A stretch of DNA of 16,308 nt, from the NCBI GenBank assembly GCA_003661385.1, contig QMWA01000020.1:1-16308 (forward strand), given 5' to 3'. Below, one piece after another: positions 3,618 to 14,606 of this stretch. The notes below the pieces were generated by a model. It ran no database searches and was not told the origin of the DNA. It saw nothing but the letters and a program-made list of their open reading frames with translations. The DNA is from Thermoproteota archaeon. GTDB taxonomy: Archaea > Korarchaeota > Korarchaeia > B14-G2. Every line of letters begins with the position of its first letter. The stretch's first letter is position 1. Both the position numbers and the translations under genes were made by a program.

Positions 3618-3904
3618 GGGGAGTGGGTGGGGGGCAGCCCCTATTGGGGCTAGGAAACTCCGCCCACCGCTAGGAGGTGCGCTGGCGTAAGCCAGGGAGG
3701 CGAGAGCCTCCGGCTCCGCACAGAAACGACACAGCCTCCTTCAGATGCCGATGATATACTTTTGAGCATGAAGGAGTAGCTGGTGAAACGTGGTGGGGCC
3801 CGCACGGTGCAAGCCAGTTTCCCACGATGAGTTCCTAGTGAGTGGGAGGTTTGGTGCTTAGCCACATGCCCCCAGAACAGAAGGCGGGTTACTACCCACT
3901 CCCC
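3618..3904 (+). ncRNA. rnpB: RNase P RNA, archaeal type
   Basis: Catalytic RNA of ribonuclease P, which removes 5' leaders from pre-tRNAs. Ends are defined by a perfect 11-bp P1 helix (3618-3628 with 3894-3904). Conserved region I reads AGGAAACTCCGCCC (3652-3666), and conserved region V reads ACAGAAGGCGGG (3877-3888). Together they form the P4 core through CCGCCC and GGCGGG. The ACAGAAACGACA block (3720-3731) and the GGTGAAAC block (3782-3789) match the internal conserved segments. The 287-nt length is typical. Placement is unusual: it starts on the base after the 23S processing stem, with no room for its own promoter, and so is presumably co-transcribed with rRNA. Family assignment is by motif recognition, not a covariance-model score. 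Confidence 0.93.
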
Positions 3905-4302: not shown

Positions 4303-4310
4303 TTTATATA
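4303..4310 (+). promoter_or_regulatory. TATA box of the initiator tRNA gene
   Basis: TTTATATA preceded by a purine-rich GGAAAG that could act as the TFB element. The usual 25-26 bp spacing places the transcription start at about 4332-4333, only three or four bases before tRNA position 1 (4336). The leader would be just (U)GGU. Confidence 0.8.
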
Positions 4311-4335: not shown

Positions 4336-4466
4336 AGCGGGGTGGGGTAGCCTGGTAACCCGCAGGGCTCATAAGCCCTGAGAGACCCTGAGATCGGTGT
4401 CCTATGGCTGAAGGTTCAAATCACCGAGGCGATAGCCTCGGTGTGAGAATCCACCCCCCGCTACCA
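4336..4466 (+). tRNA. Initiator tRNA-Met (CAU) with three introns
   Basis: The acceptor stem AGCGGGG (4336-4342) pairs with CCCCGCT (4456-4462), followed by encoded ACCA. The A1-U72 pair and three consecutive G-C pairs in the anticodon stem (GGG 4365-4367, CCC 4386-4388) are initiator hallmarks. The anticodon CAU is at 4370-4372. Intron 1 is 4374-4384 (11 nt, position 37/38), defined by helix CUCA/UGAG. Intron 2 is 4400-4413 (14 nt, 52/53), with central helix UCGG/CUGA and bulges UGU and AGG. Intron 3 is 4421-4449 (29 nt, 59/60), with central helix UUCA/UGAG, two AAU bulges and an internal 9-bp hairpin with a GATA loop. Removing all three restores the T arm GGTGG-TTCAAAT-CCACC and a 77-nt mature tRNA including CCA. 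Confidence 0.92.
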
Positions 4467-4526
4467 CAATGATGACTCCGAGCCTTCTGAGCTGTGATGA
4501 AGATCTTGAGTACTGAGTGGAGGCTT

Positions 4527-14502: not shown

Positions 14503-14508
14503 ACCAGG

Positions 14509-14606
14509 TGCGGGGGGTGGGATTTGAACCCACGAACCCCTAAGGGACAGGGTACCCTAGACAGCTCCTAAGCCCTGCGCCGTTGGCCAGGCTTGGCGAC
14601 CCCCGC
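14509..14606 (-). tRNA. tRNA-Leu (UAG) with a 13-nt anticodon-loop intron
   Basis: On minus, acceptor GCGGGGG (14606-14600) pairs with CCCCCGC (14516-14510), with A73 at 14509. A long class II variable arm (TCCCTTAGGGG region) and T arm GTGGG-TTCAAAT-CCCAC identify a leucine tRNA. Anticodon stem CAGGG/CCCTG encloses C T T A G G, a 13-nt intron (14554-14566) and A38. The intron is supported by a 4-bp helix of CUUA (32-35) with UAGG in the intron (one G-U pair) and bulges GGA and GUA. After A73 the gene reads CCT, so the terminal A of CCA is not encoded, unlike in its neighbour tRNA-Gly. Confidence 0.9.

Follow-up and report, generated by a model that had tools for sequence, protein, structure and literature searches.

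Judged from its sequence, position 4336-4466 on the forward strand of the window analysed here, a stretch of 16,308 nt, is an initiator tRNA gene laid out in four pieces and interrupted by three short introns that are real. As the earlier note had placed them, A1 is read at 4336 and A73CCA at 4463-4466. An alignment with uninterrupted initiators from the same class, supplemented for exons 2 and 3 by splice-aware alignment and for exon 4 by the sequence itself, delimits exon 1 (4336-4373, tRNA positions 1-37), exon 2 (4385-4399, positions 38-52), the seven-nucleotide exon 3 (4414-4420, positions 53-59) and exon 4 (4450-4466, positions 60-73 plus the encoded CCA at 4464-4466). Between them lie intron 1 (AGCCCTGAGAG, 4374-4384, 11 nt) at 37/38, intron 2 (4400-4413, 14 nt) at 52/53 and intron 3 (4421-4449, 29 nt) at 59/60, all on the same strand, so that the sizes and sites given in the note were borne out by both register analysis and splice-aware alignment, as was the separation of the two T-arm introns by only the seven exonic nucleotides 4414-4420. 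A TATA-like box, TTTATATA (4303-4310, +), can be read directly 26 nt upstream of the tRNA start and is a probable promoter. Removal of the three introns yields, as claimed, an orthodox initiator tRNA: over all 77 columns the spliced product aligns, free of gaps, with initiators that lack introns in other genomes of the class, and it is nearly identical to them, with paired changes at T13-A22/C13-G22 in the D stem, A28-U42/C28-G42 in the anticodon stem and U51-A63/A51-U63 in the T stem. The A1-U72 pair, the CAU anticodon and the three G-C pairs 29-31/39-41 that mark initiator tRNAs are present in the mature sequence and the alignment, and the putative role of the predicted mature tRNA is in translation start and aIF2 binding.

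Directly abutting the tRNA CCA is a C/D box sRNA (4467-4519, +; C at 4469, D' at 4487, C' at 4494, D at 4513), which scores 38.2 bits with Rfam RF00095, below the gathering score of 45. Its D guide (4501-4511) can pair along 11 nt with the anticodon loop of tRNA-Leu(CAA) (L024), a length that none of 3000 shuffles reached, and along 10 nt, one pair being G-U, with that of tRNA-Leu(GAG) (L019), at position 34. The sRNA is predicted to methylate the wobble C34 of tRNA-Leu(CAA). The search for rRNA targets of its guides gave one 9-nt match to 23S rRNA containing a G-U pair and nothing else of at least 9 nt. In tRNA-sRNA pairs of N. equitans, the cut at the tRNA 3' end is also the sRNA 5' end (PMC3491384). 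Elsewhere in the window, an archaeal RNase P RNA (3619-3903, 188.8 bits) has the 23S rRNA gene on one side and the initiator tRNA on the other, and the feature that ARAGORN reports as tRNA-??? (agga) at 14507-14606 on the minus strand looks like a tRNA-Leu(UAG) whose anticodon is followed by an intron.

The boundaries of such introns can slide by a few bases with the spliced product unchanged, and the breakpoints 51/52 and 57/58 returned by the automatic splice-aware alignment, which likewise found three introns of 11, 14 and 29 nt, are equivalent sliding registers of 52/53 and 59/60. For each intron a single register provides a full 4-bp central helix: CTCA/TGAG for intron 1 (4368-4371 x 4379-4382), TCGG/CTGA for intron 2 (4394-4397 x 4408-4411) and TTCA/TGAG for intron 3 (4415-4418 x 4444-4447). 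Among random inserts of the same lengths, a full central helix occurred in 2.6%, 5.5% and 3.9%, respectively, the product being about 6 × 10^-5. With a 4-bp central helix in the correct register, all three count as bulge-helix-bulge introns when relaxed forms are included. The strict form, with two 3-nt bulges and both inner and outer helices, is attained by intron 3 after the removal of intron 2; intron 1, which lacks an inner helix, and intron 2, with its 2-bp flanks, are relaxed forms. The earlier note had given every intron a 4-bp helix with 3-nt bulges; the helix is there in each case, but the bulge had to be given up for intron 1, in which the 5' cut falls in a loop of 7 nt, with the 5-bp anticodon stem outside. 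Intron 3 has the strongest motif of the three, with the T stem outside and, as previously described, a 9-bp hairpin inside (4422-4430 x 4435-4443). The motif of intron 2, which includes a G-U pair and has two pairs on each side, is the weakest, and one could imagine on this ground that introns 1 and 3 alone are real, the 14 nt of intron 2 being due to faulty assembly or staying in the tRNA as a bulge. This is most improbable, since taking it out gives a perfect T stem and an arm sequence identical to that of L035, and since an intron at the same site in another initiator gene (L048, see below) has a strong motif.

Both ARAGORN and the Rfam tRNA model overlook the gene. The earlier note had held that a second, intron-free initiator gene would contradict its reading; such a gene was sought, and no uninterrupted copy was found in the assembly, which is 91% complete and consists of 206 contigs. 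The initiator 5' half has a single match in the assembly with up to three mismatches allowed, an uninterrupted 3' half has zero matches, and the best covariance-model match, at 67.9 bits, is a tRNA-Ala, whereas intron-free initiators from other genomes of the phylum score 90-110 bits. The initiator gene is apparently single-copy. Given that the assembly is a draft, the locus might instead be a decayed pseudogene, with the working initiator tRNA hidden in an assembly gap. We regard this as very unlikely, because the exonic pairs are all intact with compensatory changes, the CCA is encoded, the boundaries of the inserts fit splicing rules and the assembly yielded no other initiator.

Since introns 1 and 2 have relaxed motifs, an enzyme accepting such motifs would be needed. 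The splicing endonuclease gene of the genome, endA (L030:898-2001, minus strand), encodes a protein of 367 aa in which two PF01974 domains are fused in one chain, and these two domains, both within this one reading frame, are the only PF01974 matches in the genome. The best solved relatives of the protein are crenarchaeal subunits, its second half being closest to crenarchaeal catalytic subunits. Its loop AKPK aligns with the K44 loop EKPR of A. pernix EndA, the loop lysine is kept in 26 of 26 aligned proteins of the phylum, and the catalytic Tyr, His and Lys are present in KYG, DHGP and RK motifs. With its fused domains, loop lysine and catalytic residues the protein belongs to the korarchaeal alpha2 EndA type with a Crenarchaea-type loop; a fused EndA with such a loop has been put forward as a hypothetical korarchaeal type (PMC4033280), and the loop lysine has been tied to broad specificity (PMC6379350, PMC12397907). 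Thus, of the heterotetrameric, broadly specific enzyme that had been anticipated, the heterotetramer gives way to a single fused protein, whereas the features associated with broad specificity, the loop and its lysine, are indeed there.

Taken together, the uniqueness of the registers, the near-identity to intron-free initiators, the lack of a second initiator in the assembly and the loop-bearing EndA support the explanation that this is a functional single-copy initiator gene whose three introns are cut by EndA and whose exons are joined by tRNA ligase, and we consider it highly probable. The region 4336-4466 would be transcribed with all three introns, loop-bearing EndA would cut each of them, at six predicted sites in total, and tRNA ligase would join the exons; the removal of intron 1 would be independent of that of introns 2 and 3. 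The three central helices are absent from the minimum-energy fold of the entire precursor and have probabilities of 0.01-0.04 at 37 C and 0.06-0.34 at 70 C, in a calculation whose nearest-neighbour energies penalise bulges of this kind and ignore the enzyme.

The close spacing of the two T-arm introns raises the matter of the order in which they are removed. The T stem (49-53/61-65) is interrupted by intron 2 and has a pairing probability of 0.03 when this intron is present and 0.98 when it is not, and the same five-pair stem doubles as the outer helix of the intron 3 motif. Because the T stem forms in these folds only after intron 2 has left, intron 2 is probably removed before intron 3. Ordered removal of neighbouring introns is also built into tRNAscan-SE 2.0 (PMC8450103). 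The earlier note had likewise suggested an order, by two arguments of which the split T stem makes the idea plausible and the other, a mispairing of CGGTG (4395-4399) with CACCG (4422-4426), fails: the mispair has a probability of 0.000 in every state and at every temperature computed, because CACCG is held within the hairpin of intron 3 itself. It could also be that the introns, though real, are removed in no fixed order, or that intron 3 even leaves first, EndA acting as each central helix forms and the T stem being of minor importance. Intron 3 does have the strongest motif, with its 9-bp inner hairpin in addition to the central helix, and two outer pairs pre-exist the loss of intron 2, namely 53-61 and a pair between position 62 and the final base of this intron. 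However, as long as intron 2 is present the T stem has a probability of at most 0.03, even after the loss of intron 3, and intron 3 is without its 5-bp outer helix. We therefore treat removal without a fixed order as a possibility that deserves some weight and retain as probable the removal of intron 2 ahead of intron 3.

The earlier note mentioned Thermoproteales as a source of multiple non-canonical introns and called the three introns taxonomically informative; the EndA type matches Korarchaeota, and we infer that this small phylum, and not Thermoproteales, is very probably the lineage. Among 29 genomes of the phylum the source genome is the sole member of its family. The initiator is uninterrupted in G026 and in every sister-family genome in which it was found; that of G028 has the 37/38 intron only, and that of G027 a D-loop insert. 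From these comparisons the three introns of the window initiator look lineage-specific. No initiator tRNA was found with several patterns and a covariance model in G013 (99% complete), G016, G022 and G024, whose genus we infer to be Korarchaeum, and in these genomes it may be heavily interrupted, split, permuted or missing from the draft. The source genome is rich in T-loop introns of tRNAs. Its elongator Met, Thr and Asn tRNAs and one more tRNA (L014, L025, L026, L027) have short inserts in the T loop, at 59/60 or close to it, elongator Met showing TTCAAA-14 nt-TCCCGC; in its tRNA-Leu genes L019 and L024 the anticodon stem appears to be interrupted by an insert in its 5' strand, around 30/31.

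A scan of named archaeal genomes for initiators interrupted at 37/38 gave at least 119 stretches, 118 of which were parsed, and is to be read as a biased lower bound and not as a frequency. Among the matches listed, splice-aware alignment found 54 genes with a single intron, 56 with two and 8 with three, and L119 probably has three as well, judged by eye; T-loop inserts occur in at least 20 of the initiator genes listed. The word 'extreme', used in the earlier note for three introns in an initiator, is therefore too strong, all the more as one of the 8 has them at the same positions. This gene, from the Nitrososphaerales isolate JOPF037 (L048, JASHPA010000124.1), likewise is interrupted at 37/38, 52/53 and 59/60, and its central helices (CCGG/CCGG at 52/53, TTCA/TGAA at 59/60) are complete in the registers seen in the window, but it belongs to another phylum, its introns are of 15, 24 and 31 nt and of unrelated sequence, and its inner helix at 52/53 is stronger. 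The other seven (L042, L083, L096, L111, L115, L129, L139), from Thaumarchaeota and a Bathyarchaeota bin, share the 37/38 intron and mostly one in the T loop, but have their further intron in the D loop and not at 52/53, L115 having its additional introns in the D arm and the variable region. The tRNA-iMet of Thermofilum pendens shares the joint at 59/60, the canonical 37/38 intron and an encoded CCA, but its halves are circularly permuted (PMC3218864), whereas the window gene is in normal order. In Thermoproteales, a multi-intron tRNA gene can also have as many as three introns of the bulge-helix-bulge kind, placed at non-canonical sites (PMC4033280, PMC8450103), although both the lineage and the endonuclease architecture differ from those of the window genome. 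No archaeal tRNA is known to have more than three introns (PMC8450103), and the three-intron initiator described here is a fresh case of a known arrangement.

The gene adds a clear case linking loop-bearing splicing endonucleases to tRNA genes that are broken at unusual places, and it is an essential gene that standard finders pass over. As relatives keep the initiator gene intact, the gain of the introns is datable and testable. We tentatively propose, as an idea that may well prove wrong, that having T-arm introns 7 nt apart makes the order of removal, intron 2 and then intron 3, obligatory, and that the same sites were filled independently in Korarchaeota and Nitrososphaerales. If this is true, the T arm of the initiator would be a repeated target of intron gain.
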